Both the position numbers and the translations under genes were made by a program. From Tetrahymena thermophila SB210 (taxonomy: Eukaryota; Ciliophora; Oligohymenophorea; Hymenostomatida; Tetrahymenidae), in NCBI RefSeq assembly GCF_000189635.1, contig NW_002476004.1, forward strand, positions 64,936 to 128,935: a stretch of 64,000 nt of DNA, given 5' to 3'. How positions within the stretch are numbered: position 1 is the stretch's first letter; each line of letters opens with the position of its first letter. Of this stretch, positions 1 to 63,725 are shown piece after piece. The notes below the pieces were generated by a model. It saw only the letters and a program-made list of their open reading frames with translations. It was not told the origin of the DNA and searched no databases.

Positions 1-2971
1 TTTAAAAAAATTCTAAGTATATTTTAAAGAATGAAAATATCAATCAGAAACCATTATTAATTTTAATTTTAATTCAATAAAAATAATTTAGAAAGGTACA
101 AAATATCTTGAAAAAATTAAATTACCTTGTTGCTGGAGATTAATTTAAATCTAAACAAGCACCACTTGTACTAACACCAACTTACCCGTTTGACCCATCT
201 AATAAATAACAAGCGTATTGAGTATTATCCTAAGATGGTTTTACGCAGTGATGGAATTCGCAAACACTTAAACCTAAATTTTTAAATTGAATTAATTAAA
301 CATATTAATTAAGTTTATTTATTTAATTACTTGATGTAAACTGTTATCTAGATAAACAGCTTCCTTATGAATCTATTCCCTATAAATAATAATTAGATAT
401 ATAATAACATTATGAGTGATTATTTATTTACAGAAGCTTGATAATTGTTAACATTCAACCATAAGCATACACTACCAGAGAGACAAACTTAATAACTAGG
501 AAACGCACATTATACTGCACCACTTTAGAAAGCTTACCCACAATAACCATTACTTAATTTTGCTATAGAAACCCCATCAAATCCTAAAGGTTAACAAGCT
601 TACTGATAAATGCAATATCTTATTTTTAAAAATTATATTGAATATGAAATAACATCCAAAAAATTGTAATTACCCTGAACTACAAGTAAATAAAACACAA
701 TTTAACTAAGGACTACCATCTCTTCCTATGATAGGAAAAATAATTCTTCTGATTACAGAACTACTATCTTAGCAATAATTTGGGTTTAAATTTATCAAAC
801 CTAAAATTATATTTGAAGTTCATAACAATTAAACAAAAAATTAAAAATACTTTAAGGTACAGAAGAAGAAGAAGTACTTGCATCCTATTGAGCACATACT
901 CCTTAACCAGTAATATATCCAAGATATGTTTAAGTTGATGGATAGTAAATACATTGAGATAAATCTCCTTTAACGCAAATCTCTGAAGGGCTATTAAAAC
1001 ACATATTTATTCCATTTGAAGAACTTTGCATATTTTTGAGACATATATATCTATTATCTCTTCCAACATACAAAGAAGAAGACATTTATTAACAATATGA
1101 GTTTAAAATACATATATTAGGATAATCATTGGCATTAAAAATGAAGATACATTTATTTGTAGATTGATCAAAGCACCCAAACCAAACATTACATCTTTAT
1201 TATAAAAATAGAAAATAAAAATATAATTTTTAAATTTGTTATAGATAAGACTAATCAAAAGTATATCAATGATTATATTAGCCTAATCTAATTAAATCCT
1301 AGAGAGAATATTTATTTATTTGCTATATTATTCTTTTATCTAAAAAAATTTTGATCAGAATAAATCATACAAAAATAATGATCAGTTCAAATTTAAAAAG
1401 TAAATAAAAAATAAATTAAAATTATTAAATACATTCTTAATGTATTTGATATTTTTATTAAAATCAAATAATTTTAAGAATTTAATAAAATAATTTCTTT
1501 TCAAAAATTATTTAATTTTTCAATATTTCTATAAATTTGCAATAAATTGAAAACTGTATTGCTATAGTATATTTATCTAAACTAAATTAAAAATGCAAAA
1601 TTAAATTAAAAGACAAGTGTCTTGAATTGATAATTCTTTTATATAATTTTTGATTACTAACTAAGTAGTCTATTTTCACCTGGTAAATAGTTCATAAGTA
1701 TTTTATTTATAGAATGATTGCTGTCTTGCTTTATACACTTTTGGTAAAATTAAGTTTTTACTTTGCTATGTGATTTCACACAAGTTATAATGAGTGATTA
1801 ACTAATTTCTTATTCCTTTATTATACAATCTCCTTCTTGAGTAAAACCCTTTTTTCATAGCAAAAATTATAATTGTTGTTTTAAAAAATAATAATTATAT
1901 GATTACAGTAATAATTTGTTAAATTGAGGTTTCTATACTTATGCATTTTACTTTGAAATTGTTTATATATCTACAATAAGACTTTTTACATGTCATTTAA
2001 TAATCAGTTGTGTATTAATAAAAATACACACATTAATTTGATTTAGTTTTTCCCTTTATATAGAAAAAACAAACTTTCAAAAATATTTATAATGAAAAAT
2101 CAAACTAATTACAAATATGAAAGTAGCTTAGTTATAAGGTTAGCAGGATTATTTTTTCAAATTGTTTTCGTACAAACAATAATTATGATTACACATTACC
2201 TTTTAAGAAAAGTAATCAAAAGGAAAAACACATATCCCATCTATTGTAACACCCTTTTTAATGAATTAATATTTCTGTCATAAGAAATTTTCTTTTCTAA
2301 ACAAAAAGAAATTTACTGCTGCGAACTCTAATAAATTAATACATGAACCTGTTTACTAATTGTAACACTAATTACTTTTTAATTATAAAATGAAAATTTT
2401 TTTTTCTATCTTAGGATAATTTTTTCATTACCTGCCATTGCATAATCCAACACCAAAAAGTTTATGACTTTCATCACATAAGTAGTATTATTAAGAATTT
2501 TCAAGAGATTTTCCTTTTTTAATAGTTCCTCTTAAGTCTTAACAATAACCAATTTTAATAAAAGATAAGACTAATTTGATAGTAAAAGAAATTAATATTT
2601 AATTAGCAAATAATATTGTTTCTATCAAAAATTATACCTTAAATTTAAAATCTATTAGAAAAGTTCTCATTTAAACCTAAACAAATTTAATTCTATTATT
2701 AAATAGCTTTGTATTTGTCTTCGTTTAATATTTATATACATTAATTTTTTTGTTTGGTCATACATACAGTATTTTATTTACTGTAACAGAAATCTACTTG
2801 GTTGTTAGGTTTTGAATCAAAAATACATAAACCTTATTTCTCTCTACCAATATAAATTTATCCATCTATTTCTTAGCATTTTTACGATTAAATGTCATAA
2901 CATTAGTCACTAAAATTACAAAATTAGGTAAGAGTAAATCCTATTTAAATTATAATTATTGCGAACTTCAT
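1..2971 (-). CDS. Gene 0: Cys-rich multi-module surface protein, N-terminal part (runs off left edge)
   Basis: Start ATG is at 2971-2969 and opens a hydrophobic signal peptide (MKFAIIIIQIGFTLTQFC). Exons read by eye: 2638-2971, 2432-2570, 2317-2374, 2113-2253, 1907-2053, about 1680-1848, 861 to about 1194, 674-800, 432-618, 126-273, and one beginning at 12. All are joined by GT...AG introns and carry TAA/TAG as Gln. Exons mostly encode one Cys module each, with motifs such as YIGREKQGLC, TIDGICV, YVGRDNRYIC and YLGYITGQGVC. The first five exons match gene D's first exons almost one for one (EIDG, YIG, GLC; SFIK.GYC; GKT..NQC), so this gene belongs to the D-like branch. The furin-like, beta-helix and membrane parts should lie to the left of the window. 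I infer a secreted or surface-exposed N-terminus; function is unknown. The exon ends near 1680 and 1194 are uncertain. Confidence 0.8.
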
Positions 2972-4899
2972 ATTAATATTATTATTATTATTTGCCTATG
3001 TTTCTTTTCTACTTTGTATTTTTCTTTTTTAAAATTAATTAGAGATTGTAATACTAATCAAAATAAGCTTATCTTTTCAGTTTATGAATAATTCTTTGTT
3101 TCTTCTATAAAGAGATAAATAAATTAGATTTCAGATATTAATTTCACATTTGATAAAAACACAAATGAAAATTTGTTAATTATAATACTATGTTATTTTT
3201 TAACTAGACAAAGTTAAATTTTTTTTGAAAATCCTAATTTATTCAACTCAAAATCTAAAATTTGCTAATTAAAATTCCTAATTAACTAACAGCACTCATT
3301 ATTTTAAAAAAATGAAATATTAATACATATTTACAAGTTAATAAAAGGGAATTATTTGTAATAAAATAATTGAAAACATTAATTAATTGATACAAAAGCT
3401 ATTTTCTTCTACTCATACCTAAATAAATACATTTAAATCTAACCTTTTATAATTGAATTATTAGTTATCTAAATTATGTTTTAAAATGCTAATTTTTAGG
3501 ATAAAAATAAAATGTAATTTCTTTTAATAAAAATATTTTTGCAAAATTAAAATGAAATAACTATTTATTTAAATAATTTCAATTCTTTTTAAAGATGGTC
3601 TCATAATAATTTAATTTACTTAATTGAGATATTATAAAGTTCATTTCAAGTGAAGAAACTTTCTCAAAATATAAGTATAAAATTTGAAAAAAAATATAAA
3701 ATAAAAAGTTTGAATAATTGAAAAATATTGTTTTAATTATATATCTGTAATTAAATTCTTGATAAAAGATTTTTCTTTGCTGACCAGGATTTTGATTTTA
3801 TAATCAAAAATTTTAAATTAAATAAAAGCAAATATTTGATTAGACTTGCGTAAGTATTAATTATATCTGCTTTTAATTATCGTTTGTAATTAACACTTTC
3901 AGATTTTAATATTATTAGCTTACTGATTTATGTTACTATTATATTAAATGAAGAGAAAAGTTGAATCTTATTTTAACAATTAATTAAAAATATTTACAAT
4001 TATATTTTAAAAAAATTAGAATCACCACATTTTATTTACAATTATTCTTAGAATCATTTAACAATATATTTTTTTGATATAATTCTTTTGCATTTTTTTT
4101 AATTCAATCTCATGAACATAATTAATTTACTAATTACATAGAAATATTTATTTTCCTAATTATTTCTTTTTTCTTATGTTTACTCAACATCAAATTGATA
4201 AAGGCATTTTTGTTACCTGAAATGAGTATATAAAAGAAAGTATCATTCCTTTTAATCAATACACTTACATCTTTTTGATTAAATTTTATACAAATTCTTT
4301 TTGTTCTAAATTATTATTTTTTTTGATAAAATAAACACTGAAATAATTTTATCAAATCTCTTTCTTTGATTTAATCAGATTATGTTATTTTTTTGAGTTA
4401 AATTTTTTAATAAATAACATATTAAATTATAGCAAGATACCATACAAAAATATAGAGGTCGTAATGCCACTTTTTATGAAATATATTTATTTTATATATA
4501 TTAAAAAATCTTATTTCTATATTTTATAATAGAATAATAATTAATAATTCAAAAAATTAATTTGATAGAAATATTTTTGTTGTATATTATTTAATATTAT
4601 TAAAATAAAATAAATATAATACATAAAAATTTGAATTTAATTATATAATTACAAATATAAAATATGTAATAATTTAACTAAAGTAATTTTTTTTTTAGAT
4701 ACTTTTTTTAAACATAGTTATGTTATGGTTTTGTAAAATAAATTTCAAAGAAATAACTTTTTTTTATGTTCTAATTTATGTCTTACACCTAGTATCTTTT
4801 ATGACTATTTTGTAACTAAAACATTTTTATGAAAATAAAAATAGCTAATAGTCTGATTTATGAAATAAATAAATTTCCTAAATCTATTAATATTTATGA
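2972..4899. other. Intergenic region upstream of gene 0
   Basis: This stretch is extremely AT-rich with long A and T runs and no convincing coding stretch on either strand. It should hold the promoter and 5' leader of gene 0 next to 2971. Its left limit with the decayed fragment is vague: faint similarity to the membrane-segment exon of gene D may continue down to about 4700. Confidence 0.5.
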
Positions 4900-6060
4900 T
4901 ATAATACTTGGGGAATTTTAGCCATAATAGAAAACTGTTCCTATGATAAATGATTAAAATAAAAAGAGCTTAAGAATATTTACATAGTATTATTAAAAGT
5001 ATAATATTTGTTTCTTAAAAAAGCTCTAACATATTGTATAAAGTAAATTATTTGAAACTTATTATTGATAACCTTAAGTCATAGTAAATGTCATAATCAG
5101 AATCATCAAACAAAAGCATAATGGATATAATATTTCTGATAAGTTAATTTCTGAGCACCTAATTTTTATTAAAATTTAATTTATTTTATTTAAATTAAAA
5201 AATACTTCTAGCATTTTTGATCTATATTCATAAAATACTGTTATCCCCAATTTTTTCCACTGATATCACAATCTTAACAGAAAGCACCAATGTATCCTTA
5301 TAAAAAAATGTTAGATAAATTAAGAAATACTAATTAATAATGAAGTGATAAATTACCAATTTAACAATAATATTTTAGATCGCTCTCTATTTTTTTTATT
5401 TGCTTACTTATGAGACTAGATTTGGATTAAAAAATGAATCTCCTATACAGTTTTTACAGTAAAAAATCTAAGAAGAATGCTGATTAACCCTCCAATAATT
5501 ATAGGTTAAAAGAATCTGATTTTTGATACACTTTGTATTTGTGTTTGGACATTTAGACAAGTATCTGAATTTGTAAAGCTGTAAGAATCTTAGCAGGGAA
5601 AGCAATAATTAAATTATCCATATATATTTTTTTTACCAAACCTACTGGACATTAAACTAAATGATAAGAATTAACTAATAATTTTTATCATATCCAATTA
5701 TAAAATTAGAACTATTATACTATGGCCTTTAAATCAAATCACTTGTTATTGATAAAGTTATTTATTAGCCCATGACTCCATAAATTTAGAATTGCTTAGT
5801 TAAATTATATATACCACTTTATTATTGCAATGTGTACTTGTTTAAATAACCTTAACCATTTTATAGCTTTACATTCAATACTATATTTGATGATAAGTTT
5901 ACTATTTCTTCATTGAATTCTATTGATAATTTGAACACTATATTTTGCTTAATTAATTTTAATAATATTTAATCTATGTTTTTAGAAATAATTACATTTA
6001 TGATATGTAGATTAATTTATAAGTATAATTAATTATAAAAGTTGAGACTATGATTAAATA
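4900..6060 (-). pseudogene. Decayed C-terminal fragment of a D-like family member
   Basis: Reading right to left, this region matches the end of gene D's ectodomain in order. Near 5700-5900 is a stretch like NLTQQIKVYG and TSDLILIP (here NLTKQFQIYG and TSDLIQRP). At 5400-5600 comes a Cys-rich knot (WRVNQ, CKNCIGD). Near 5225-5300 is GYIGAFCQDCDISGKNWG, against GYVGALCEDCDRSGEYWG in D. Frames change between conserved pieces, for instance near 5670 and 5565, and the YYCKQ stretch that precedes an intron in D is missing. No upstream beta-helix or N-terminal part was found between here and gene A. This looks like a truncated host pseudogene left by an unequal duplication. Two assembly errors could mimic the shifts, but the missing 5' two thirds argues for a true relic. 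Confidence 0.65.
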
Positions 6061-6606
6061 AAATTTTATTTATTAAATAAAATGAGAAAATTGGATGTAA
6101 AAAAATAAATTATTATTAAAAAAAAGACTATTATGTAATAGTATAAAGCTAATCCTATAATTAAAATACTACCAACTGTGAAGGTACAGATGGTGATATT
6201 TCATTTAATTTTATGATTTTAAGCTAATTTTACTGTTTCTATTTTTTAATTTTTTTATAAAACTATTTTTATTAAATTTTGAAATATTTTTTCTAGCTGA
6301 TTAAATCCTTTTTTCAAATTTTGAGAATAAAAATGTTTTTTAATATTTTTAATGCAATTAATTTAAATTATTTTATAAATTACGGTTGTTAATTAATATG
6401 TTTGTTGGGAATGAATATAAAATATAAAATACAAAATACTCATCATCAGATTATTGTTTAATAAGGGTTATGAGTAAGTTATTATTTATTTTATTAATAA
6501 TTCTTATTGATATTTTGATAAATATGTTTGCTATGATTTTCATTAAGCTGTTTAAATTTAGGTGATTATATTATTATTCTTAGATTTTTCCATAGATTTA
6601 AAATCT
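6061..6606. other. 3' flank of gene A
   Basis: AT-rich sequence between gene A's TGA (6609-6607) and the decayed fragment. No coding signal was seen. It presumably holds the 3' UTR and poly(A) region of gene A. Confidence 0.4.
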
Positions 6607-9600
6607 TCAGTCTATCAACATAGCCAATTTTATTTAGAAAATATTTTAATTTAGGTAAATTTTAGATCTTTTATGAGATTATAGTAGCAAAGCTGCTAAT
6701 TTACTCTTTGATAATTATATAAAGTATATTTTTGACTAAAAAACCAACAGAAAATATATTAACTATTATAAGAATACTGAAAGCTGCAGTTTTGCTTGAT
6801 TATTAATATGATTCTTAGGCTTCAGATAAGAAGGCACATAAGCCTATGCTAATCGAACAAAATATATAAACCAATTATTCTACATAATTTAAAGTTGTAT
6901 TACAATTTGGTTTGACTATTTTATTTATTAAAAAATAATCAATTAAATTAAAGACAATTAATAATAAATTTACATTATTTTATTGATATTGAATAAACCA
7001 GTAGTATAAAGCATAATATTGAAGATTTTAAAGGATTTTATTCATCCAAAAACTAGTTATTTACTATTACAATCAACGATTTCAGAAACATTTTAACTAT
7101 TTCCCAATAATAAAACTAATCTTTGTATTCAAAGTAGAATATTCCATATATTTTAAGGTTATTTAGTCTATTTAATTTTTCTTTTACACTCCTTAATTTT
7201 AATAGTAAAAATAAAGGAATTAAAATCACCCATAGTCCTAACAAAGGGTAAAGAATCATATTTCTATGCTAACTGTATTAGTCATCACAGTCAACAGATG
7301 AAAAACTCTTAACAAAGTTTTTTCCGTATAAATTTACACAGCTGGCCTTTAAATATAAGAAAAAAATTTAATTTAATATTTTTTTGTGAATAATTTTTTT
7401 TTTTTGTTTATTGTAAAACAAAATAAAACCACCAAATCCAATATCATCCATTTTATTTTACAATTTATATAAACAAATTTAATAATTTTTAGTCAGTTTT
7501 AAGAGTAAAAAAAATGATAAATTTCTAATATTAAAAAATAAATAAATACTTACACTTCCCATAATTTATTGAACAACAGAAGGTTAGTTAGCTATAAATA
7601 TGAAATTAATGCCAGAAAAAATATCAATAAATTTGAATTTTTATTTTAAGATAGCTATCTATGTTATATAAAGTATTATAAAAAGAATAATGTAAGAGAA
7701 GATTAGTGCTTGGCCTATTAAAACTTTAACAAACACATAATTCATATCTACGCTTTTGTAAATATCTATGAAGGAGCAATCTAAAGAAAATAGGGCTTGC
7801 TTTCCTGAATCTGAAACAGGAGATAAAAAGGTTTGATACTTTTACAACTAATTTTTAATGATATAGCTTACTATCATAAATATTTGCAAATATGAAGTTA
7901 TGAGCTTAATATAAAAGCTTGTTTGTTGAATATTTCTAGGAATATAAATTTTCATTTAGTAAAGAACTTTAATTTATATAGTCAAAGCAACTTATTTCAG
8001 AAAAACATTCACCATATAGACTGTTAAAATCGAATTTAGTATCATAATCAAAACGAATAGCCATAATGAGTTATGACTAGAGCAGCTATTATTATTATAA
8101 TTAACTTTAGTTTTTAATCATATTAACAAATTTTACTTAACACAGTTAAGTCCACCGTCTTAGGCATATGATTCATTCCAAAATTTTGCATAAATATCAC
8201 AATCTGAGCACAAAGGGCCTAAGGATCCTAATATTTTTTAATTTAAAATAAAGTGTATCTTGGAATTTATAAAAAGAACTTTTTACCTTTTTAACAATAT
8301 CTAATATTAATGTCTCTTGTTATCTTCCCACTATTTTAGTATATGTCTATGTCACCTGTGCAACTATTAACTTCAGTGTTACATTAATAAATATCAGGAC
8401 TAGTTAGGTTTAATCTCCAATACCCATTTTTAAGGAAGATCATTCCTCCATCACATATTCCATAAGATGGACACTTCATACATTTACCACCAGGCTAGTA
8501 ATTGAAAAGTGGATTATTGCATCTATAACAAAAATCAAAGTTTTAATTTTATATGTGCCAGTATCCTAACTCGCAAGATTAAATGAATTAAACAATTAAA
8601 TCAACACTATTTTAAGTAGTGTTATATGAAGTTATTTCGCCAGTTTTTTAATCATAAATAGGAGATTTAATTAATTTTGATACGAATGTAAGTTTTACTG
8701 TTTATCCAAACTTTCCATTTAATGTTAGTTAATTTAATTCAAAATTACCACTTTGCTAAGTAATTTATGAGCTACTTAAATAAGCATTTTATGTATCATT
8801 TAGTATTACTTTTAGAGTCACATTTACAGGAAATATCTTAAAGTACTCATTCTCCTGTGTCATAAATTGTATGCTAAGTTTTTTCTATTAAATAATATTT
8901 AGATACTTATTTTAAAATAAACTAAAATTACATCTAATTTTCCACTAGAGTGATAGACGGTGTTGTTATTTAGCTGAACTTGATTTAAAAGAACAACCAT
9001 GTGATGAGGATACTAAAAAATATTGAATGAAAAAGATTAAGCTATGTTATATATAAACGTGTTTTTAGTATTAAGATTTTAAATTGATTATCCACTTTCT
9101 GAGTAAATAGCACCTCCTATTTAAGCAGTATTATATACGAAAAAGCTTTACTCTACTTTTATATTAGTTTTTTAATCAATTCCTTTATAATAGATAGCTC
9201 CTCCATTACTCTTATTAGCTTTGTTGCCAACAAATGAACAATTAAAAAAGTATATGCTTGAATTATCGATGTAGACTGCTCCTCCAGATTGTTATGAAAA
9301 GTTATTTTCAAATCTGTTAAAAGAAAGCTATTTCATATAGTTTAAATCTGAAAATCCTTACAAAAATCTTGAGTTAAAACTATCAATTTTATAAATATAC
9401 AATACTCCTTTATCTTCTACTTTATTTTACTCAAATTAGTTATTTATGACCATTAAGTAGTAACTTTTAAGTTAAATCAAACCATATTAGCAGGCCAAAC
9501 ACTAATTGTTCGTAAACTAACTATAAGAAATCTAAATATAATTAGAATATATTTGTAGAAAAGTGTTAGCTATTTAGCTATAGGAATTACTAAAAATGCT

Positions 9601-12600
9601 ATTATAAATATTAACTTGTAAAATATTCAACAATGTAATAAGAGAGACCTAATAGTTAACATTTGAGTATTAATTATTTTAATCTAAAAAGTATTAAACA
9701 TCCTATGCTTCGATTAATGTCTTTATTCCGAAATTAGTCTACAAAAGAGAGCTGTATTGTTAATTTGCCATTATGAATTGATTATTTTAAAGATAAATTT
9801 CAAAGAACCCAATCAAGCATAATTATTAAAAACTTACATTTTCTTTGATTAAATATTTTTTTATCCTTATCACTAAGGGATGTTAAGAAATGCTAACTGG
9901 ATTATAATTAATCTAAGAATTTTTCAATTAAAATATATTATTTTGCTTTTATTAAAAGCTAAAGTAGAATACTGAGCCAAATTCACTGAAGTTATCAATA
10001 AATTAAGTATTATCAATATTTATTAACTTCTTAAAATTTGAGTTTTATAAAAATATTACACCACCTTAATAAAGTGCAACATTCTACATAAATATTGAGG
10101 CTTGTATTTCTCCATAAAAGCTGCAAAGTTGAGAGTCTAAGTAAAGAGCACCCCCTTTACTTTATCCATCAAAAGAATTGAAACTTAAATTGCTAATAAA
10201 AGCAGTGTTTTAAATACTTAAATAGCCACTAATATCGAATTTAATATAAATTGCTCCTCCCTACTTTGCTATACCACCATAGAAATTAGAATCAGTTATA
10301 TAAGCACTTTGTGTATAAGATTATATAAATCCTCCAATTACAGTTGTATTTGAGAAATCTATTTTTGAATAATCATTATTGAATTACGAGCTGTTAATTA
10401 CAAATGATTTAGTATTTAAAACTAAGCAATTATTTTTCTAAACAGAGTAATTATTTAAGAATCTACAGTTTGTTAGTTCAATTTCACCTATCAGGGCTTC
10501 TATATATGCACATGTAGCAATTTTAGAGGAAACTTCCTTTTTAATTAAAAATTTAAATTATAAAATTATTTTTAAAACTAAAATAAATAAAATTTGGAGT
10601 AAAATTTATGTTAATAAAAAGAAAATTTTTTAAATACATCAGCTTTTATTTAGTAGACCAAAGATGAATCTTAAACAAGCAAATTAGATATTTTAATAGT
10701 ATCTTATATCTGAGAATTTATTTATATTGGAGCTGTACTAAATTATTATTAAGTTATGTTGACAATACAGTTTATCACTTATATATCTTAAATCTAAAAA
10801 GATTTATTCATATTTTTATCATGCGGTTTTTATTTTAAAGTTATAGTTATAAGGGATTTTTGGAAAGATGTATTTTAGATTAAAACACTTTTTAATAATA
10901 ATTAGTAAAGCAAGCTTTTAATTTCTACAATAGAATAGTTAATAATATTTTAATTAGTTTACTAACTCTTTAATACCTTTATCTTTAAATTATTAACCTA
11001 TTGAACTTTCAAGAATTATATTTAAGCATAGTCGTTTATTTCAGTGTTTAGTACCACTATATTATCGACATTTGAAAGACTTATAAAGTTACAAGCTTGA
11101 AGATTGGTTGAAGGATTACTGATAATTAAATTACTCTTTATACTTGTAAACTAAAGAATAAATTCGTCTATTTTTTGATTGTTATCTGTTAAAAAGATAA
11201 ATTAATTGCTATAAATGACATTCTAGATGTATTGAATATCTTAAAGATGTAAATAATTTGGAAATTAATTTGTTGTTCTAAGTATATTAAAAAACATATA
11301 TTATTTTATTGTGTTGTTAGTAACAATAAAAGATTTTGTCTCAAGACAGTTTACCTCAAATAATGATGGATTTTAGTTTATAATTTAGCTTTCTTACTGT
11401 AACGTATTATTTCTTATTTAAATATTTGTTAGCATAATACTAATAAATTGATTAAAAGTGAGTATTTTTGAATAGTTTTAAATTTAATTATCACTTAAAA
11501 TAAGACCAGAAGCTCTAAATGTATTTATAAACTATTGATTAAATATCAGATAGTTAAAAAAAAGACTTTGATTATCAAATAAGCAGGAGTTAATTAAGTT
11601 ATTTTTAACAGTGATAGATGTATTATTTTGAATTATCTAAATAAAATTTGAAGCATTAAATACGACCTAATAAATTTAAAATAATAATATTTATGTTAGT
11701 TAATATGTATTTTTATATGAATTTAAATTTTTTATATTTTATGAATTTAAGAACATTTAAAAGGGGGGTAAAGGAGAATTAATAATAAATAAATGTTCGA
11801 ATTTTTTTTCTTTAAGATACTTTTGTAACTAATAAATAGTTGTATTAATTAATCTTGAATTTATGCATTCTTTAAAGTATATTTAAAATGTGGGAAATAA
11901 AAAATTAAATTATTTACATTAGAGATTTTAATAGAATCTAGCAATATCTGAATACTAGGATTGATTAAATTTTAAGTGTATTAAAGCTAGACAACTTAAG
12001 AATTATTAAAGGTAAGATTATCAAATGTAACATTTTATAATACAAGGCTGTTCTACAAATTATTGATAAAGATAGATAATATATTTTGAGGTCCTTGCTA
12101 TTTTCTTATGAATTTAATGTTGCTTATATATACTTATTTTAAAATAGATGAGAATATCTAAAATCCTATATTAAACTTGTCAAAATCTATAGAATATGAA
12201 TCAATATTCATATTAGAAATCGTTACATTAGTGAAACCTTGGATTACAGTAGGGCCTATTTGTAGAAAATAGAATTATTTATCTTATACTTATTCATAGG
12301 TTATATTTAAATGAAGCACTTCTAAGGATTTGATACTTTATTACAAATTAGATTTCAAAATAAGAGATTTTGTAAGTTTGCATTAGCTAAGCTCTGAAGA
12401 AAATACCAATTGCAAATCTAATTATTTTAGAGAAATCTCATTCAAACCAACAAATGCCAAATTAGGATTCTATTCTCCGAGAATTATATTGTCAAAATTA
12501 CTTATTTCTGAAATCATATTAAGATTTAAAGGACTATCTCTCGTTCCTAGACCAATAGAATCTATATTTAAGCAAGTTACATAAAGCTTAGTAACTTTTT

Positions 12601-16307: not shown

Positions 16308-16354
<47 letters not shown>

Positions 16355-48100: not shown

Positions 48101-48424
48101 AGCTAAATAGTCAACACATTAATTCTATGAAGAATTCAGGCAAATTTAATGAAATATGGTGTACCAGCACTAAGCTGAATTACTTACTGAAGCTTCTTTG
48201 TTTTTTAAACATGTTTAAGATACAGAATCTCTCCCAACAAAATTTGTTTGACTGTAATCTATACAATAATTAGAACTAATGCATTCACTACTAGATGGAG
48301 ATCTACATTAATTAGTTTAAGATGTTGAGTTAAAAAAGCTGCATTAGCTTGTTGGGCATAGCTATTAGTTGCTTAGTTTAAAAAGTAAAGAAAAAATAGC
48401 AAAGATTATTTTATAATAACTCAT
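36117..48424 (-). CDS. Gene C: giant Cys-rich / beta-helix / multi-pass membrane protein (paralogue of B)
   Basis: Start ATG is at 48424-48422 (signal peptide MSYYKIIFAIFSLLFKLSN), with exon 1 at 48001-48424; stop TGA is at 36119-36117. The domain order is that of gene B: FVGRDS and GVDINGNC modules, then the CxxC-rich region (about 45.3 to 42.5 kb). The beta-helix-like region with GGAIY motifs spans about 42.4 to 38.4 kb, and the Cys knot about 38.2 to 37.5 kb. The membrane exons end in YPLFAVWSIILPLFLLY, FGIFYFEYKEKFYYWEF and an Ile/Gln/Lys tail about 13 residues longer than B's. N-terminal exon 1 differs from B more than the rest, especially between the signal peptide and the first VGRDS motif, as expected for an exposed and fast-changing tip (inference). 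No disabling change was noticed in the exons sampled, so both copies look functional. Confidence 0.85.
41418..41527. other. Paired G and C tracts in a gene C intron
   Basis: A G-rich arm (GGGGTAGGGGGAGGGAGGGG at about 41420) and the arm TTTACCCACCC ending at 41526 lie in one intron. This is the counterpart of 26162-26269 in gene B. The G arm is longer here and long enough for a four-run G-quadruplex on the plus strand; on the transcript it is C-rich. Confidence 0.5.
45411..45425. repeat. Short (TA)n run in a gene C intron
   Basis: Seven TA units followed by GAGAAAGAGAGAAA in the intron left of the exon around 45150-45383. It is noncoding and of low interest. Confidence 0.7.
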
Positions 48425-49489
48425 TCTTCAATCTTTTAATTGTTATTAATTGTTAATATAATTTAATTTTTGATTTGCTTACTCAACAATCTATTTCTTA
48501 ATCAAAGTAAAAATTTTTTTATTTTTCAATTTATTATCATAAAAAAATTGGATTTTTAATTTTGATACTTTTAATTAAATTATTGATTTTCTTTATCTAA
48601 TTCAATTCAAAGAAAAGTATTATTAAAAAATTAAGTAACTTTAACTATTTATTATTTTTTGCTGATCCTCAAAGTCTATTAATATTTCAGAAGAAAACTC
48701 TACTGCTTAAATCTGAGTATAAATACAGTAATCACTATAATTAAGTATAAGAAAGGAAAACTAATTACTAATAAAAAAGCATTATCATTGAAAAGTTCAT
48801 TCATCGTTTTTATTTACTTTATTTATATTTTCATAAATTTATTTTTTTATTATTATTATAAAAAATAATAATTTTTGATTAAAATAAATTCAATTTACAG
48901 ATTTTATTTTTTTATTTAATAGAACTTAAATAATTATTTTAAATATAAAATATGTATTCTATATAGTGGATTATTTGATAATAAATTTGATTTTAATTTT
49001 TATTTTAATATTTTTTTAATTAAATTATTTAATATCATATTTTTAATTTATAATAGATTGTTAGTTTATTATATAATATGCTTAATTATTTATATAAGAA
49101 AATATTAATTATTTTTTAAACAAATAATCACCAATTTCTTTGAGAAATATATTAAAAATTTTTTAAAATTAATGTAATTTATTTTTTACCCCTTCCTTTT
49201 CTTAAATATTCTTAAGAAAAAAAGAAGTATTTAGTTAGTTTCCTTTATAAATTAAATGAAAGTATATTGAAATCATATCAAATAATTTATTTTTATGCTT
49301 ATAATCAAATTAAAACAATAATACTTATTATTTATTAAGTTTTTGATTTAATAAATTCAAAAGCTTACACTTAAAAATTCTAAAAATAAAGCTAAATTAA
49401 TTTAAATATTTTATTAATATACTTATATTCAAAGCAACTAAAATAAAATTAAAAGCAATACAAAATAAAATATTATTTATCAAATTTTT
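48425..49489. other. Intergenic region between genes C and D
   Basis: AT-rich. Its left part (to about 48855) is the upstream region of gene C, shared with gene B. The right part is the 3' flank of gene D. No coding exon is supported. Confidence 0.5.
48489..48560 (-). promoter_or_regulatory. Conserved upstream block of gene C
   Basis: Counterpart of 33517-33590 (CTATTTCTTAATCAAAGTAA on the plus strand plus a T-rich stretch), about 65-135 bases upstream of the gene C start. Could be a promoter element, or simply recent duplication. Confidence 0.35.
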
Positions 49490-52400: not shown

Positions 52401-55400
52401 AATCATGGCTTTATTATTTTTAAAGAGAGTGTTTTGGATAAATATTGGGGGTAATTAATACTGAGTATTTTAGAATTACTAAGCATACAAACCTGCACCA
52501 AATTATGCCACATTATTTTCGAATATTGAGTCTAAAATTATTTATTCTTAAGAGATAATTTAAATTGTGCCATGAGAACAAGAATTGCATTTATTGTTAA
52601 ATGTATTTAATTTATAAATTTTACAATTTAAGCTTTAAAAAAAGACTGCATTTTGTATTTGGATATTTTAATTAGGTAAAGTTAAAGTATTGTTAATATT
52701 GTTATTGTTACTTATTGTGTTATTATAAATATTTATACTAATTGCTTAAGTGACTGTCACAAGATTTTCTAAAAAGATACTTTCATTATAAATGTTATTT
52801 AACTCTGAGTAATATTAAGTATTTAGGACAAAAAGGATCTTCTAAAATATGTAATTATTAATTTAATTTAAACTAATATTCTCAACATTATTGCATGAAA
52901 TTTTAAATTAAGAATTCTCTATTTAAATTTCTTAAGTATTTTATATTGAAAATAAAGAATTTCTAGTGGAGCTTATTTCACTCATATAGATGTCTGTAAA
53001 TAATGGATTTAAATTTAAAAATGAATTAATCATCGCCTCTATTTAATTTAATGATTTAATGTATTATAATACAACAATTGTTTTTGAAACAGTAGAACTA
53101 TCTATGTTTAAATTACTACCTTATAGTGAAAAATTATTGTTAAATACAACATTTTCAATGAATATAGCACTCCTTGGTTTTATAGAGGTTAGTATATGTA
53201 TGGCTCCGCCTTTAAAAGAAGCAAAGTTAGATAAAAAAGATGATTAGTAAATAAAGATATCATAACCCAAAGATTGCTACCCATCTATGTATAAAGCTCC
53301 ACCTTTTGCTTCTAAATCTGTGTTACTATATGCAATGTTATTGCTAAATGTACAGAATTTAAAATATAAACTTCCTTTATTTTATGAAATCCAATATAAA
53401 GCTCCTCCATTTAATGCTTATCCATTAAAAAAGTGTGAGTTATCAGCATTGAATGTTTCACTTTAAATAAATACGAAACCTCCATTTTTTTAGTTATCTA
53501 AATTTACTGATTAGTTTTAAAGAATAGGATTGGTGAAATTAGAGTCAAATATATGAACCTATTTCACCTAGCCAAATATCCAACTAAAGGGACTATTTAA
53601 ATCTTAATTAATGAAACTCGAATTTTTGAATACAACAGTTATTGTAGGAGATTAAAAATAGAAGCCTAAAGCAATTTGTCCGATTGGTTTCTAAAATTTA
53701 AAAAATATTAAATTAAAAAAAATATACACAATTAATCTTAAAGATACCTATTTTGTCAGAGTTTAAACCTGGTAGTTAGAAAAGGTTACATTAGAGATTA
53801 ATATTTATAAATCTTATTTTGAATTTATTGATATGGGTGAACAATACTATGCATTTTTTGAGAAGTAAAGTTTGTTTTAGTTGCTTTATATATTACTAAT
53901 AAAAATTCCTTATAAAGATGACTAATTTTAATTTGAGAAAACATGATTTTTTAAGCAAGTGTAGCTGTCTTCAATTTAAATGATATTCTTTTATATGCTA
54001 AGACCTTATTGTTAAATATCATAAATATTTACATAATTAAAAATGGAGTATAATTTGCAAATTATTGGAGCCATAAATTGGTTTGAAGTCTAAGTTTAGA
54101 TAACTTTTGAGATAGAAATACTTTCAAAGTTATTAACTTATAAAAATTAAAATTCTATGTTATCTTCCATAGAAACATTAAAAATTTAGATCGTCTATAA
54201 GTTTTCTAGCGTTATTAATATTTGAGTTAAATCCATTTAGAAAATATTGTTATTAATTATTATGGTACTAATTTAAGTGTTGCTATTTAAAAAAGTTTTA
54301 AAATTAAATAAGATATAATTATTATTAATAAATTAGTTATTTTAAATTGTTATTTATTTCAGTATAGATTACTGTATAAAATTTTTAGAATATGATTGAC
54401 TATCCTATTGCTAGAGAAAGCTATAATTAGTAACATTATTTTTTATTATTTAAAATCCATTTAAATTAAATGTATTTGACATAATTAAAGGAAATGCTTA
54501 AGTATTTTGTTATTAAAGAATGTTTTGACTTAATAAGATATTATTTATTATTAATTAGTTCATAAAATTTGAATTTAAGATTTATGAACCCAGTAGAATC
54601 TAACACTATAAAAAAGAAATACCACTTAGCTAAGCATTTATCTATTAAATTGTAATATAATTAGGTTAGATATCAAAAACAATAGCTCTATTAATTAAGA
54701 CTGATTATAGAAATGTTAAATTTTGAGTGTTCAATCTAATATTTGGCATATTCAACTAAATTATAGATGACTAGTTAAAATTTACCTAATTAATCAAAAC
54801 AAACACTAAATTAATATTTTTTAATTTATTTAAAAATAGAAATAAATAATTATTTATTAAAATACTCCCTTCCTCCAAAACTTTAATATAAATAACTTCC
54901 TTTGTATATTTTTGCGTTTGTGTGAAGGGGAGGGAGAAAAAATATGATATTAATTTTATTATTTTTTGATATTAAATAAATAAAATATATTTAAATATTA
55001 CATTTTAGAAAATAACTTAATCAAGGGTAACATTTAACTAGGAATTTAAATTTTGATTAGTATTCATTTCAATTAGCTATCTCTAGCTTATAATTTATAT
55101 ATTTAGAAACTAGACTTGCTATAAGACTATGTTTGTCTACTGTAGAGTTGAAAGTTGAAGTGCAAAATATTACTGAATGGTTTTCGAGCTTTAGGAAGTA
55201 ATAAGCTAATTAAACTAACAGTTAAATAACTAAAAATCACTTAAATTTTAATTATTAACAGATAGTCCAAATACACTATTAACTTTTTACTATTAAAATT
55301 AAATATTACTTACAGAGACTTAATTGAAACCTGTTATGTTGAAAGTATTATTTTATTAAAATACCATCATATTGTTTGGTTTAGTACCAATCGATGTAAT

Positions 55401-58400
55401 ATTAAGTATAGCTAATTCAAGTGATCTTATTTTGTCTTTTAAAGTAGTTATGAATGATTGTGTACTTTGTTCTAAACAAATATCATCTAAGAATATTAAC
55501 TATACCTCTAATTACTTTACTTAAAGTTCATTGTAATAAATTATTGCTTGATCATAGTCAATTTCATTTAAAATTAACTAATCTATTCCTATTTCATTTA
55601 ATCTATTGTAGTTAAGAGGATTCTAAAATGATCCATCACCTTTACGACTATTTATATCTAAACATTAGATATAAACAGTTTACTATTTTTTAAAAAAGCA
55701 ACCTTACTCTGTATTTTAACACAGGTAACACTTTCTTCTTTCTTTGTCATAAGTTATTTTGTATTATTCTTGAGTGGAGCTTGTAGGTAATGAGTGTTTA
55801 CAAGATAAGCATTAGGCATCGTATAAATATAGAGGATTTACACTTATGTCTTTGGTATTAACACAAGTTTCACACCTTTTAATTTAACACAAAATATAAA
55901 TATTTTTTTTAGTAAATCAAAGTATAAGTTACATCAATGGGCAAAGTTGGCAATCATTACCTGCAGATGTTAAAGAAACCAAATTTTTAATGTCAGGTAA
56001 ATTATTAAGATTATAATAAAGCATTCCAATAAAATATGATTAATAGGAAATTAACGAGGATAATAAATCATAGTTGCATTGAATACATTAAGGCTTATTA
56101 TTTATTAAGATACACTGCAAGCAATATTATCCACATTATAATTTTACACACAATTTTATCTCTTAGTCAAATTAATATCCATCTTAACATTCTGTGCAAA
56201 TCAATTAATAGTTTGTTTGTGATGTGTTATAGTTTAATCTTTGCTAGATATTCAAATTATTTCTTTTGTAAATAAGCTAAGATGTAAAATTAAATGTTCG
56301 AGTACCTTTATTTAAAATTATTTTAAATTTAATAATATTGATAATAATAATAAATCTTTGAAGATAAAAACTCAAAGTTTTTAAAAAAATATTTAATCTC
56401 ATTCATATACTTTAGTATTTAATAATCATAAATTTAGATTTTAAAGATTTTTTTGATAATTTTATTAAATTGATTGTTTATAAGAAGATTTATTTTATTA
56501 TTATTAAATAGTTTTATAGATATCATTAAAAATCTAAAACTGAAATGAAAAATAATAGATTCTTTTCATACCTTCATAACATTTAGAACATCCTTAGGGA
56601 CAACTTATACAGCCATTTATCGATGGAATACTAAGTTTATCTTGACACCTGGTGCATTGATATATACTTTAATTTGATAAAGGATCTAAATATTAGTAGC
56701 ATTCTGAGCAACTATTAATCTATTTATAAATAATTATTTTAAATAATATTTAATTAAAGAAAGTTTACATTCTCTGAGCACATACTATATTAACATTTTT
56801 TAGGAAGTGTAGCTAAATTAAGAACATATCCATTACTACAAAATTGGCATTCAGGAAAGTTTTAAATGTTAGTAGAGCAATAACTGCATTTATTTTACTA
56901 AGTTATTTATTAACATCCAAAGCTACACTTTGACTAATCAATAGTTGCAAAATAATTTAAACTACATTATTTGCAAATAAATTAACTCTAACTAATATGT
57001 GTTGCAGAATTATAAGTCCATAAATATTCAGTTAAGTCATACTTTTAAGATCCATATGTTACTAATTAACTTGTATAATCACAATTTTATATGTTTTGAA
57101 AGCATTATTTACCTAGTTTCAAAAAAAGCAAATTTATTGTAAAAGTATATAATAATTTAAAGAAAAAATACCATCGTATGATAAAAAGTATCCTTAATTG
57201 CATTATGTACATTTTTAAATATAGTTCATTTAGTTAAATTCAGTTTAACTTATTATTCTTAATTTTTTTTGATTAAAATTTAGAACTTTTTCTTAATTTT
57301 CTATTTAAAAAATAGATAAATTAACCAAATATTATAAATATTATTTACCGTATTAGCATCTCTGACAATTATTACCACACTACAAACATGATTATAAATC
57401 ATATGAAACCATGTATGTTTATTAACATTATTGACAAATAAGAATGAAATTATAATAGTCCAATTAAGTAGGATCATAGTTTATCTCTGAAATCAACTAT
57501 GCATAACCAGACATGAATGTAGCATATTGGCAGTATTAACAATTTAATGGACACTAAAAGCATGATCCATCTCTTAAAACATATCCAATATTACATTATG
57601 TGCATATTGCTATGCTTGCAGATTTCTAAATACATGATTAACATTAAGAAGGGCCTAAAAAATTAATAGTTAATTTAAATTTATTTTGCTAAATGTTTTA
57701 CACAAAGATGACAAATAGGGAACTAATTTATACTTGCCAGATATGAGCTGAACTTAAAAGTTTGTGGCATATAGCGTATTCTCTAATACTTAAAAACCAG
57801 AGTCATATTAAACTAAATAATTTGTACATGTCTTAAAGTTACTTTCAGATTTATTCCTAATTTTATTAAAGTTGATAAAAATATTTATTTCATTAAAAAA
57901 CTAAAATTTCAAAATTACTATTTTTAAAATCTAAAAATAAAAAAATTAATTTATTTGATTAAATAAATGAATGCCAAAATAATTATTAGATTAAGTTAAT
58001 TATTTGATAATATTTTTCAAAATATTTAATATTTGATATAAAATGAAAAATTTTACCATAATCCATATTCTGATAAGCAATCTATACATTTGTATGTTGG
58101 AATATTCTAGTAAAATTGCTAAACTTGAGTATATAAGTAAGTGTATGAGTTGCATTTAATACAAGTTTGCTAAGTAGAAGATATTTGATATAAAAAATAG
58201 CCTTATTAACATTAGTTACAAAATTCAGGAGAAGAACATGAGTAGCATCTATTTAAAAAAATTTTATACTAATAAAAAATTAATGAAAATAATACCCTAT
58301 TGGACACTTCTAATTTGAATCTTTAAGGCAAAACTATTGATCATAGCAATCTTATTTTACATAGGTAAGATGCATTTCAAAAAAAATCTACTAGGAATTA

Positions 58401-61400
58401 TTATTTATAATTGATATTTCTTTTAGACTATAGCACCTATCATTTCCAGGATTAGTATAGTGCTTAGGACACATTAGACATTATTAATTTTTTTAAGCAA
58501 TTTTCTAGCAAAAACCATTTGAATTTGTGCAAAAAATATCTCCATTTTTGTCTGGGTTATCAATATTTTATTAAATGCACTTATTATTTTAGTTTTGAGA
58601 TTATGTAAAGCAAGAATTTCCAACTAAAAGACTCAATAAGTAAGTACCAGTTAAACAATTACCATCACCATTAATATCGCAGTAATTATCAGGGCAAATA
58701 ATACAATTTTAAATATCTAAGTTTGTACAAAAACCTATATTTTATGAAGTAGATTTATTTTAAAATATTTAGTTTGTTTAATTTAAAATAAATAAATAAA
58801 TCTTAATTATTAAAGGTTTGATAACATTTTTATTTATTTAAGTCAGTTAGATAAATTAAATTCTGAAAAATTGAGTAAATTTAAAAATAATTAATTTACC
58901 ATTTTTGTCTGTACAAAAAATAGCTGTAGGCTAAATGAGATCTTAACAAACATTAGATTAAGTAGTAGATAAGCATTAATCATGATCACAACTATAACAT
59001 GAGCCATTAAATGTACATATTCCATTTTAATCTACACACATATTTTAAGTTATATCTATTCTTTAACAAGCTTAGGTTTATAAATTTAAGCAAAATCTTT
59101 ATGTTGCACACTAAACCTAATTTAATTTATTTTATATATTCAATAATTTAAGAATAAATAAATTATTTTACAGCTATTGTTTCATTTTATTTAATACATT
59201 TTAAAGTATCCTTCTGTATTCCTTTTTTACATATAATTTTTAACTTAAAATATTACCAAATAAATAAAATTAAAATAATACCTATTGTTAGAGGATTGGT
59301 AAAATCGAGCTTGTTACATGTACCTAAACCATTTGAATCTACTAAAATACAATAACTTATTTTTAAAATAATAATAGTTATTCTTAAATAATTAAAATTT
59401 AACAATATGGGTTATAAAAAAAGAAAGTTAAAATATAGATATAATAATAATTTATTGGAGTAAATAGTAATTTGTATTTAAAAAATATTATAAATTCTCA
59501 TTAAATAATGACTCCTCAATATTAGGAGGGGGAGGAGAGGGGTAAGTTTTAGTTTTAAAAAAAGGAAAGAGAATATTTTTCAAAAAAATTTGTTAATGAG
59601 AGTATACGATATTTAGGAATATACAAATTTTATCAAATTAATAACTTAGGGGAATGTATTTTACAAAATCTCATCATATTAATAACATTGATTATTGATC
59701 AGTTTTTTTAAATTTAATTCCCTTATCTCTTAAATAAAACATTAATTTACCCATTTTTATAACAATTAGAAGCTCCGTATTTGCGAGACTCACCTTATTA
59801 AAGACATGAATGAGTGTTTTTTTCTTTTCCTGGATAGAGATCAGATAATGGGATACAGGCTCCTTAAAATATACAGAATTCCATTTGACATACACTAGCA
59901 ATAGAGACATTTTAAGGCATGCACTATTAAGTATTTTAATCTCTACCAATTTTGTTTATCTGTGTTGCATCATTCATTTCTTAGCATTTATTTGCATCAC
60001 TAGAATTAATGCAGTACATTCCATCCATGCATCCTATGCTATTTGCTATATTAATTTAGAAAACTATAATATCTTATTTAAGTAGAATTTTATTAAAATT
60101 ACGCATATTCAAATCTTAGCACATTTAATTAGAATTCTTTGCTCTGTAAATTAAATTAGGAAAGTTAGGATCAAAATCCTAAACTATTTGACATTTTTAA
60201 AATCCTGTGCTTTTTTAAAAAAAATGAATTAACTATCAAAATAAAATAAATAAGTGATTACGATATTTAGAGAATACAAAATGTCATCCCAAAGCATGAA
60301 ACTATTTCTATTATAAAAATATTTCATAATAAAGATAAAAATTTGAATAAAATTTACAAGTAGAAGTTATTTAATCCTGAAAAACACATTATTAATTTAT
60401 ATCTATTCCAACAATAAAAAAGCCTTTAGCAACCGTTCCTTCATTAACGCAATAATCTTAACTAAAGTTAGGATCAGTAAATAAGCATGTCCCCAAAACA
60501 CATGTTTCGATTTAATCTCCATTTCCATTAGGATCATAATAAGGTAAGCAATAACCTGTATTTATTTATCTGGCATATTTATTTATTGATTTTGATAGAA
60601 CTAAAGCTGAACAAGCATTTCCATTTTAAATGTCTAAGCAAAATTAACCCTTTATACATCTATTAAATTTAATATTATTTTATTGTTGAAAGCTAATTAT
60701 TTCAAAAGTAAAACTAAACCTAACACTATTTGGTTCATCAATCTGTTTGCAATATCCATTTACATCAACTCCAATCCTATTCTAACTGGAGTCTAATGGA
60801 AAACAGCCTTCATATGAATTTGGATCAGAAGGATTTTATTTTTAGATACAAAAATTGATTGAGCAACTTATAATTTCTATTATTATGAAATAATAAATAT
60901 AATTAATCAATAATTTTAATCAATATTTTTACTGGGATAGTATGAGGAATTATATGCACATTAAGAATTGTTTACTCTACCCTTTAAATAAAAAAATTAA
61001 TTTAAAATATTTATATATTATAAATTTTATAATGGATACTGATCTACTAGGTTGTGTATCATTAATATAGTTACAAGTTTGTGCAACTGGATCAAAACAT
61101 ACATTTTTATCAGAGCTACATTCTATGCTAACAGCTTAGCCAGCTTGTAAACATTAATTTTGAGCATTTCTTCCCACAAAATTTTAATTAAAATAAATAC
61201 ATGTGTTTTAAATTTAATCTATGCAAAGTCTATTTAAAATATAAATTAATTTGAATAGTTATTATATAATTTTTAAGTTGTAAGTTACCCTGTATAGCAT
61301 TAAATTATTTAATTCTAGGGAGTTTGATTTAAATTTAAACATAAGTATTTGAAAGAATCTACTCCAACATTAGTTGTATTGTCCAGTTATCTTATAAAAC

Positions 61401-63725
61401 CATTTGAATCTTAACAATAATTCTTTCTTAAATTTACTATATCTAATAAAATGATTATTTAATGTAAATTATTTAAATTTAATTTATAATTACTTGCAGC
61501 AGATCCTACATTGTAAGTCACTTAGTTCAATTATGCGCATTAACCATTTTCTACAATATATCCTAAAAATTAACTGTCTAGGGGATAAACTACACAAAAA
61601 TAAGCTGGCGAAATCACAAGACATATATTTTAAGGGTCGTATATGCAATTTAAAGCATCTGTTGATTATTAATAATTCTCAAAACATTGATTGTTTGACA
61701 CAGATTTTCCTATGTACTTGGAGTTTGATTAGATTTAACAAATACCATTTTATTAACATCCTATTCCATAACCTCCATATAAGTATGTTTGATAACAATT
61801 TTAAGAAGCAGTATCAAAGCAAATTTATCCTGATGGATCTTTACAGCTGTTTAAAAATAAATGAAAAAATAAAATTAGCTTTTTAAGAAATTAATTCATA
61901 TATTTAATAAATGTTTGAATGATAAATTTACTATTATTATTTAGAAGATGGGTCACTACAATAAATTTATTGGTTTGATGATAGATTTATACTGGAAACA
62001 GTTAAGCAAGTTTTCTACGAAGGATTTGAATACAATGAAATACAGAGACTTTAGCTGCAATAATATAAATCTAATTTTTAAATTATTTTATTAAATTTGA
62101 TTAATTTTTCAAATTTATCAAAAACCTGAATAGTAATTATATAAACTCGCACATTATCCTCCAATCCTTTAACCCTTTTTGTTAAAAAAAAAGTTATTTA
62201 ATTATCATAATGAATTTTTATAATAAATAAATACCACAGATTATTGATTAGATATAGTTACTTGTAAACATAATTAATTCGAAGATAAGCAAGCTGGGTA
62301 GGTGTAATAACAAGCAATAGCGGAGGCTTAGTTTAATCCCCCACAATAATTATTTTACAAGAGAGCTAGGCTATTATTTGAAGTACCTAAATCTACACAA
62401 GAAAATGTATTCACATCAATGCATTAACTATTTTAAAATATATTAAATCCTTTATTTAAATTCTAGAAATGATAATATATTGAAAATAAAAATGTAATTA
62501 ATAATTTTGGAGAAACAAATTTGAGCAATTAAGTTTTAGAAACAATATAATATTTTACGGATAACTACAGAGGTCTAATTATCTAAAATTATTTTTTAAC
62601 AAAATACAATCACCATTTGAATCAACTCCCTTTTATTTAAAATAAAATATAGATTTTGTATTTAGAGTAGTATAAATTATAAAATAATACCTGAATATTA
62701 GAATTATTTAATTTGATACATTATGATTTAGTTTTTCTAATCAATCTACAGTATGTGGGTTTGCAGTAAATTTAAATGATATTGAGAGGTTCTTCATCAA
62801 AAATACACTGATTTAAATATGTTTTCCCCTATAATAAATTTAAAAGAGTGTTATTAAAAATTGTTTATTTGTTTATTTGCTTATTAGGCTCTTACTATTA
62901 TCTTGTCAGAATTATAAAGTATGCATGTATTCAAATTATCTGAGTTTTTATAATGACAAAATTAGTTGTTGCAATAAATTTATTATTAAAAAAACTGGTT
63001 TTCATCAACACAAAATCCATCTATTGTTCTTCCCTTGAATAAAAAAGTAATCATTTTTTAGTTTAACTCAATTTAGAAAAAAAATTACTGCTACTATTGA
63101 GAGCATCTTTAATTAATTAGTTGATATCTCTTTGCATTCAAGCCTTTTTAAAATGAGAAATTAAAATAATTAAAAATTATAATCAATTTACATATTCTGG
63201 TGTGACTTTATCTATATTTTTTCTTAATTAACACATAAGAAGTAATTAAGAGAAAACTTGTTAGGAATTCCTTCCTCTATTTAAAAATTTTAGTTTTAGC
63301 AATAACCTTCTTTGATAAAAGACAATTCTATTTTTATAAAGTTGAAAAAATTATAGTTCATTTTTTTTATTGATGATACCTAGAGGAGCATGAAGGTCAG
63401 ATAATTTTTCACCTAAACTAATACATTAATTGCTCAATTTTTCTATTGCAACATACTTATTATCATATTTTACCTAAATACACTTATTTTTTTCTTTTGT
63501 AATGCAAATGTTGTTATGCTTATCAAAACAAAAATCAATTTCATCATAGTCGTAAGAATCCATCACACAAAGACCTTTCGCTTTCTCTTTTCCTATATAT
63601 TTAATACCATCTATTTCTTAACATACTGACTCAAACTAGTCTAGGCACTGACTTTTTTAACTACAAACAAAGCAATAAAGCTCAACAAATAAGCTTAAAT
63701 AAATTAGAAATTAGAAATATTTCAT
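49490..63725 (-). CDS. Gene D: giant Cys-rich / beta-helix / multi-pass membrane protein, divergent branch
   Basis: Start ATG is at 63725-63723 (MKYFQFLIYLSLFVELYCFVC), exon 1 is 63380-63725, and stop TGA is at 49492-49490. The N-terminal half carries many modules with GRTIDGFCV, GVDSNGDC, YIGKSVSNNQC, GVDVNGYC, GIDINQQC, VDSNGLGTC and DINGDGNC. The D-x-[ND]-G loops recall degenerate calcium-binding loops, but that role is inference. CxxC-rich repeats lie at about 58.6-55.7 kb, and the beta-helix-like region with NGGAIYI and KGGALYI at about 55.5-52.0 kb. The Cys knot (GALCEDCDRSG, CKNCVGD) is at about 51.6-51.2 kb. The membrane part includes GFFTYEYKQEYYLWDLVRL. An intron at 49941-50139 precedes the last exon, which encodes NPYVNEKLNVLDFR, two hydrophobic stretches and a basic tail longer than in A-C. 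Many exons are short and Cys-rich; not every splice site was resolved. Confidence 0.85.
54865..54937. other. Paired C and G tracts in a gene D intron
   Basis: CTCCCTTCCTCC at 54866-54877 and GAAGGGGAGGGAG at 54925-54937 are complementary enough for a stem of about six or more pairs. They lie within a long intron in the beta-helix part of gene D. In D the C arm of the plus strand comes first, the reverse of B and C. Confidence 0.45.
59524..59551 (+). other. G-rich polypurine tract in a gene D intron
   Basis: AGGAGGGGGAGGAGAGGGG on the plus strand lies in a 400-base intron between the exon ending near 59757 (encoding CIPLSDLYPG and NCYKNG) and the short exon at about 59283-59338 (VDSNGLGTC). 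No complementary C arm was seen nearby. Confidence 0.5.

Follow-up and report, generated by a model that had tools for sequence, protein, structure and literature searches.

A head-to-tail array of giant ciliate genes for predicted beta-helix membrane proteins, enlarged by tandem duplication

The window, by which we mean the whole 64,000-nucleotide stretch of DNA that was analysed, contains five related membrane-protein genes, all of them very large, lying head to tail on the minus strand, together with one broken fragment (Table 1). We put at roughly 60% the reading that this is an array of giant receptor genes of two types, I and II, which would have been duplicated, occasionally swapped and then each preserved. 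Read directly from the sequence are the gene anatomy, an architecture common to the genes, their tandem duplication and a single 3' cassette that the neighbours G1 and G2 share. Ciliates have large, unexplained gene families given over to the cell surface, and one of these now gains a defined anatomy (a beta-helix ectodomain and a multipass cassette), a count and an array layout. To these are added a mosaic gene and a relic, both broken at one and the same intron, and a counterpart conserved in the model species T. thermophila.

Table 1. Positions of the array features within the window
Feature	Span	Strand	Start (ATG)	Stop (TGA)	Description
G2	49480..63725	-	63725-63723	49482-49480	giant gene, type I, ~3.5 thousand aa
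G2 3' cassette	49450..51990	-			juxtamembrane, Cys-module and membrane exons with introns; common to G1; edges approximate
G3	35851..48424	-	48424	35853-35851	giant gene, type II, 3,366 aa
G3 beta-helix exon	38424..40040	-			last 539 beta-helix residues; GGA(I/L)Y-type motifs
G4	20644..33452	-	33452	20646-20644	giant gene, type II, 3,423 aa; whole-gene duplicate of G3, 79% aa identity
G5	6446..19512	-	19512	6448-6446	giant gene, type II, 3,426 aa; ~50% aa identity to G3 and G4
Relic	4562..5991	-			partial, frameshifted copy of the G6 3' cassette; ~1.14 kb missing inside; edges approximate
G6 5' end	1..2971	-	2971		type I; whole model 3,897 aa

Gene models were built with a purpose-written, splice-aware gene finder working on DNA only, without RNA, and their exon edges are approximate; 87% of the window lies within gene spans, 67% within modelled exons. 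The original prediction of a one-strand array with five signal-peptide starts, four TGA stops and a relic was correct in each of these parts: all five starts combine an ATG with a hydrophobic leader, all four stops are in frame, every long gene lies on the minus strand, and the fragment matches the 3' end of G6 with its frame shifted. G2 has 34 exons in one model, the last two of which read as a single exon in a later one, G5 was joined from two model pieces, and modelled G6 extends about 11.8 kb past the window's left edge. On the plus strand, strict gene-finder settings gave one model only (121 or 188 aa), and loose settings gave many, the longest of at least 833 aa, antisense to the minus-strand genes. 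Past the left end of the array, the gene models are of genes that read as unrelated.

The encoded proteins share one order of parts, namely a leader, Cys repeats, a beta-helix, a juxtamembrane Cys module and a membrane part, and each contains 169-294 cysteines. The expectation of related genes with matching domain order is corrected in one point, there being two subfamilies with 26-29% amino acid identity between them, type I (G1, G2, G6 and G7; 42-55% among themselves) and type II (G3, G4 and G5; 49.5-79%). By a simple hydropathy cut-off, most models end in 5-7 hydrophobic segments, G7 showing three at a poorly modelled end. Structure-based matching assigns the last 539 beta-helix residues to the pectin-lyase (right-handed beta-helix) fold; Foldseek by itself gave no match at an E value of 0.001 or better. 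Chlam_PMP repeats (PF02415) rose above the Pfam cut-off in two of nine fragments scanned, a likeness to chlamydial PMP proteins and autotransporters that does not extend to the C-terminal beta-barrel of the latter: no autotransporter family is among the Pfam matches, and the C-terminus here consists of hydrophobic segments. Pfam called no furin-like domain, the kind of repeat expected of MTA/MTB mating-type proteins, in 15 fragments scanned. Candidates rejected as below their Pfam cut-offs were a pectate-lyase-like family (E 0.0059), SOP4 (0.0052), NCD3G (0.06 and 0.13) and two ribosomal families; a PDB profile search with the alignment of the G3 membrane exon gave two weak caspase matches only (E 0.33 and 0.5). 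Because the AlphaFold model of that exon was unusable (pLDDT 43.7, pTM 0.20; input of six window rows, one in-frame intron retained), channel, receptor and plain anchor are indistinguishable.

Comparison among the genes points to repeated copying at several scales. G3, G4 and G5 carry direct repeats, up to 300 nt long, spaced 14.2-15.3 kb apart, and the whole-gene duplicates G3 and G4 have a pS of 0.26 overall (0.17-0.44 per 150 codons). In its ectodomain, G1 has a dS of 0.17-0.22 to each of two genes on contig C166, which are 0.22-0.39 from each other; on these distances G1 is evidently a recent copy of the two, tail values being excluded since the first C166 gene is mis-framed at its 3' end, which inflates them. 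In G7, a five-exon module of about 297 aa stands in four consecutive copies (57-63% to the reference copy) beside an additional, weaker one (34.5%), and elsewhere G6 and G2 have one good copy each (57% and 47%). Tetrahymena LRR and exon arrays show a like combination of tandem duplication and exon-unit multiplication (PMC6564038); these encode LRR proteins, not beta-helix receptors, and the part of that report used here does not name the beta-helix and multipass architecture; it lists the GFR Cys-rich domain in its top seven for species-specific genes. Taken together, growth of this cluster of paralogues by tandem duplication is supported at the level of sequence comparison.

The 3' cassette has a history of its own. 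Between G1 and G2 its dS is 0.15-0.18, with saturation upstream; over 51905-49647 their exons are 93.2% and their introns 88.0% identical, and the similarity breaks inside the intron at 52019-51906. The relic begins in the homologous intron; on either side of its internal gap it agrees with the 3' end of G6, in 90.8% of 1,154 columns on one and 87.0% of 284 on the other. As a general rule, cassette sharing was rejected by six neighbour pairs on contigs C144, C9 and C255: in four, linker region and tail have diverged about equally, and in the remaining two (one on C144 and the C255 pair) the linker is more alike than the tail. Exchange, as read from these patterns, is one clear putative case (G1/G2) plus the relic.

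If these are receptors, they would lie in the plasma membrane, the leader side facing out. The Cys repeats and a beta-helix region some 1,100 residues long would together form a long rod that may bind a partner, be it a second cell, prey or a glycan. Anchorage would come from several helices together with the juxtamembrane Cys module, and these may also relay a signal. Unequal exchange would enlarge the array by copying whole genes, would multiply the five-exon repeat module of G7 and would occasionally swap the 3' cassette at one intron, after which purifying selection would keep each copy as its own receptor.

Alternatively, the array may encode mating-recognition machinery, relatives of MRC2 that serve cell-cell contact in conjugation, which we consider unlikely. 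MRC2, of the mating-type recognition complex, is described as having a pectin-lyase fold and eight membrane helices (PMC10901506), and by that description resembles the beta-helix fold and several C-terminal hydrophobic segments found here; in the titles and abstract openings searched, which do not describe this array or architecture, it is the nearest description. MRC2 is smaller, the components of the complex being given as 92-212 kDa against about 390-540 kDa predicted here. MTA and MTB, again compared by description, are large Cys-rich membrane proteins whose 3' membrane exon is common to different ectodomains (PMC3608545), which the shared cassette recalls. According to the same account these genes form a head-to-head pair and undergo programmed joining from a germline array, whereas the array genes run head to tail and a common cassette was found in a single neighbour pair.

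The original prediction, that this is an expanding locus possibly making variable surface proteins, fared well in its first half, given tandem duplication and the G3/G4 whole-gene duplicate, and poorly in its second. A locus whose copies are expressed one by one and diversify so as to alter the cell coat, as with the Ser immobilisation antigens of Tetrahymena, seems to us distinctly unlikely, although Ser genes too stand in tandem on macronuclear scaffolds and encode Cys-rich ectodomains, as outlined in PMC4136848, and repeat number does change in this family. In the same outline Ser antigens are GPI-anchored; the array proteins have multipass C-termini and lengths of several thousand residues, and no GPI-anchor signal was seen by hydropathy, several hydrophobic segments giving way to a hydrophilic tail. 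In all domains tested, pairwise dN/dS stays under 1 (0.11-0.67); the ratios are rough where dS is saturated, and the value of 0.67 belongs to a tail whose end is mis-modelled. Between G3 and G4 dN/dS is 0.34 overall and, among the longer regions, highest in the N-terminal repeats (0.53), a point for diversification, as is the equality of pN and pS (0.214 and 0.209) in one of 21 windows, within the Cys repeats. The model of that window probably contains an unspliced intron. One family member, moreover, is 85-92% identical to a T. thermophila counterpart. The array genes thus look individually preserved, to judge by their substitutions, and not built for surface-antigen variation.

An extension of the receptor reading, which we regard as very unlikely, would make the arrays a second recognition system in Tetrahymena, one not concerned with mating. 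Its giant beta-helix receptors would form a repertoire, and recombination at a fixed intron could attach one 3' membrane or signalling cassette to different ectodomains; in evolutionary terms this would parallel the membrane exon that is shared at the mating-type locus. Less credible again is a set of surface enzymes for feeding, whose beta-helix would cut or modify polysaccharides. Among the 50 fold matches shown are many polysaccharide lyases, epimerases and tailspike proteins, but the adhesin and autotransporter entries PfbA, Vag8 and pertactin match too, and a common fold by itself shows no function.

That the array is an artefact of assembly or annotation, made of unrelated short genes or misplaced copies, has a nearly negligible probability: contigs do end within near-identical copies (the 5' part of a G1-like gene stands at the start of C166, and apparently at that of C146 too) and the exon models are home-made, but collapsed duplicates are unlikely because G3 and G4, the closest pair in the window, differ at about 13% of exon bases, and long spliced genes agree with the excess of G3/G4 change at third codon positions (0.176, vs 0.114 and 0.096), with a larger share of multiples of three among exon indels (4 of 6, few as these are) than among intron indels (14 of 55; two comparisons pooled) and with the alignment of G2 to a giant protein of T. 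thermophila.

This protein, 7w5z_U2 ('Transmembrane protein, putative'; 3,634 aa), places G2 in its family through homology in four parts in the same order: Cys repeats (E 6.7e-152), beta-helix (2.6e-91), juxtamembrane exon (8.5e-68) and first membrane exon (3.9e-39), with identities from 34% in the beta-helix piece to 53% in the juxtamembrane exon. The repeat-region query of G2 matched after splicing, its ORF with introns retained giving no match. Used as single-exon queries, the G3 membrane and linker exons found no match; a four-row beta-helix profile led by G3 matched 7w5z_U2. Its nearest relative in this genome, however, is one member on C146, outside the window, to which the high-identity comparison is confined: the two are 90% identical in a cassette exon, 92% in the beta-helix piece and 85-89% in the Cys repeats, all other loci reaching at most 57%. 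The search for further copies that had been suggested with the original prediction found 40 loci, spread over 17 contigs, with the family linker domain, which makes for a larger family; in 22 of 22 cases (counted manually) neighbouring family loci less than 40 kb apart share a strand, which is more than chance. The 7w5z_U2 protein was deposited in a mitochondrial complex IV entry, and a member of this family standing in the structure of a respiratory complex deserves a check.

The head-to-tail cluster that the original prediction described as at least five giant surface-type genes plus a relic is real, and it extends beyond the window (C404:64936-128935), with the rest of G6, together with G7 and G1, also lying on contig C404 (141,270 bases, of which the initial 2,935 are N). 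Gene models came from a home-made semi-Markov gene finder trained on the window and using GT-AG introns, and their exon edges are approximate; codon-position mismatch and indel lengths support them. Within the genes TAA and TAG are read through and TGA is the stop, and window GC is 18-25% per 2-kb step. All long genes lie on the minus strand; the plus strand yielded a single model of 121 or 188 aa under strict settings and many models, up to at least 833 aa among those listed, under loose settings. On its left the array ends, and a one-exon gene of 336 aa, apparently unrelated, starts ~32 kb beyond the window's left edge.

Members of the tandem array (window coordinates unless a contig is named)
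Feature	Position	Strand	Source
G2	63725 to 49480	minus	gene finder
G3	48424 to 35851	minus	gene finder
G4	33452 to 20644	minus	gene finder
G5	19512 to 6446	minus	gene finder
3' relic	~5991-4562	minus	
G6 5' end	from 2971, off left window edge	minus	gene finder
G6 remainder	C404, left of window		gene finder
G7, 4,668 aa	C404:34612-52525 (window -30323 to -12410)		gene finder
G1	C404, outside window; truncated by right contig end		gene finder

Two modelled G5 exons are separated by a perfect (AATA)13 tract (16306-16357). The G3-G4 spacer holds a 393-aa open frame with many hydrophobic stretches (34749-35927, minus), which overlaps the G3 3' end and matched only itself in a genome search.

Several duplications are visible. 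G3 and G4 form a pair duplicated over the whole gene (dN 0.111, dS 0.322; pS 0.17-0.44 per 150 codons), and G1 and two genes on contig C166 are recent copies, with ectodomain dS of 0.17-0.22 from G1 to each C166 gene and 0.22-0.39 between the C166 genes. Because C166 opens with the 5' portion of a gene resembling G1 (C166:1-7600, minus strand) and repeat matches in C146:1-4200 appear to mark another at that contig's start, one of the two probably continues the array beyond the right end of C404. Within G7, a module of ~297 aa and five exons (~350/154/184/49/150 nt) occurs four times consecutively in the Cys-repeat region, at 57-63% identity to the reference copy.

G1 and G2 form a clear mosaic. 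Their ectodomains share 45% amino acid identity (dS 1.74; 1,933 aligned codons), whereas the 3' cassette of juxtamembrane, Cys-module and membrane exons shares 88% (dS 0.172; 598 codons). In 100-base steps, nucleotide identity jumps inside the intron at 52019-51906 from 40-67% to mostly 85-97%, with two intronic steps at 77%, and drops from ~49,550 to 49,350, at and beyond the stop. Over 51905-49647 introns are 88.0% and exons 93.2% identical, and a longer BLASTN alignment averages 86.2%. Such a low dS, together with the likeness of the introns, argues for a recent exchange of DNA rather than for stronger constraint alone. Similarity between the relic and G6 begins within the homologous intron, ~42 bases upstream of the 3' splice site; that one intron saw two events is no more than suggestive. 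A common tail with differing linker regions was found in none of six neighbour pairs in three other arrays, on C144, C9 and C255 (235-291 and 177-205 codons each). On C144 (L034/L035) and C255 (L047/L048), linker pS (0.04) is below tail-exon pS (0.12-0.17), a hint of ectodomain conversion.

The suggestion that these genes encode variable surface proteins is disfavoured. Between G3 and G4, dN/dS is 0.53 in the repeats, 0.25 in the CxxC region, 0.21 in the linker, 0.27 in the beta-helix, 0.58 in the juxtamembrane part (89 codons), 0.34 in the Cys module and 0.28 in the membrane part, and pN (0.214) approximates pS (0.209) in one of 21 windows, located in the repeats. The comparison across species covered one member, on C146, set against 7w5z_U2, a T. 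thermophila 'Transmembrane protein, putative': it is 90% identical in the cassette exon (198 aa), 92% in the beta-helix (199 aa) and 85, 89 and 88% in the repeats (116, 54 and 34 aa); the remaining matched loci reach at most 57%. From its 90-92% best match to this protein, the genome is taken to be that of a close Tetrahymena relative. These comparisons argue that the genes are individually kept. A conserved, putative adhesion or recognition role is the most likely reading but unproven.

Among known systems, MRC2 of the mating-type recognition complex is described as combining a pectin-lyase fold with eight membrane helices, MTA, MTB and MRC1 carry a GFR domain and five helices, and the complex's components span 92-212 kDa (PMC10901506). 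MTA and MTB are a head-to-head pair with a membrane exon common to mating types (PMC3608545). Ser antigens are GPI-linked and frequently in tandem arrays (PMC4136848), and a study of ten Tetrahymena genomes reports exon arrays and tandem duplication, and finds the GFR domain among species-specific genes (PMC6564038).

Across the searched genome (101.0 Mb, 445 contigs), the G3 linker matched 42 rows, or 40 loci on 17 contigs after merging two same-gene second rows, and neighbours at most 40 kb apart, counted by position, shared a strand in 22 of 22 pairs. Membrane and juxtamembrane queries reached further relatives (at least 88 and 119 rows), such row counts being lower bounds. C218 and one C146 locus have identical tail scores and may be redundant. 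The locus is of an ordinary Tetrahymena kind, a family of Cys-rich membrane proteins encoded in tandem, set apart by unusual size and its clear mosaic. At C140:384258-414338, a tandem type II pair has another modelled gene in between (400462-398536), presumably transporter-like from its C-terminal motif.

PDB entry 7w5z, of T. thermophila mitochondrial complex IV, includes as chain U2 a 3,634-aa member of this surface-receptor-type family that matches G2. A Foldseek search with the beta-helix returned no 7w5z chain among the 50 matches listed. 7W5Z served as a complex IV starting model (PMC10227065). Chain U2 may be a mistaken sequence assignment to a small density.
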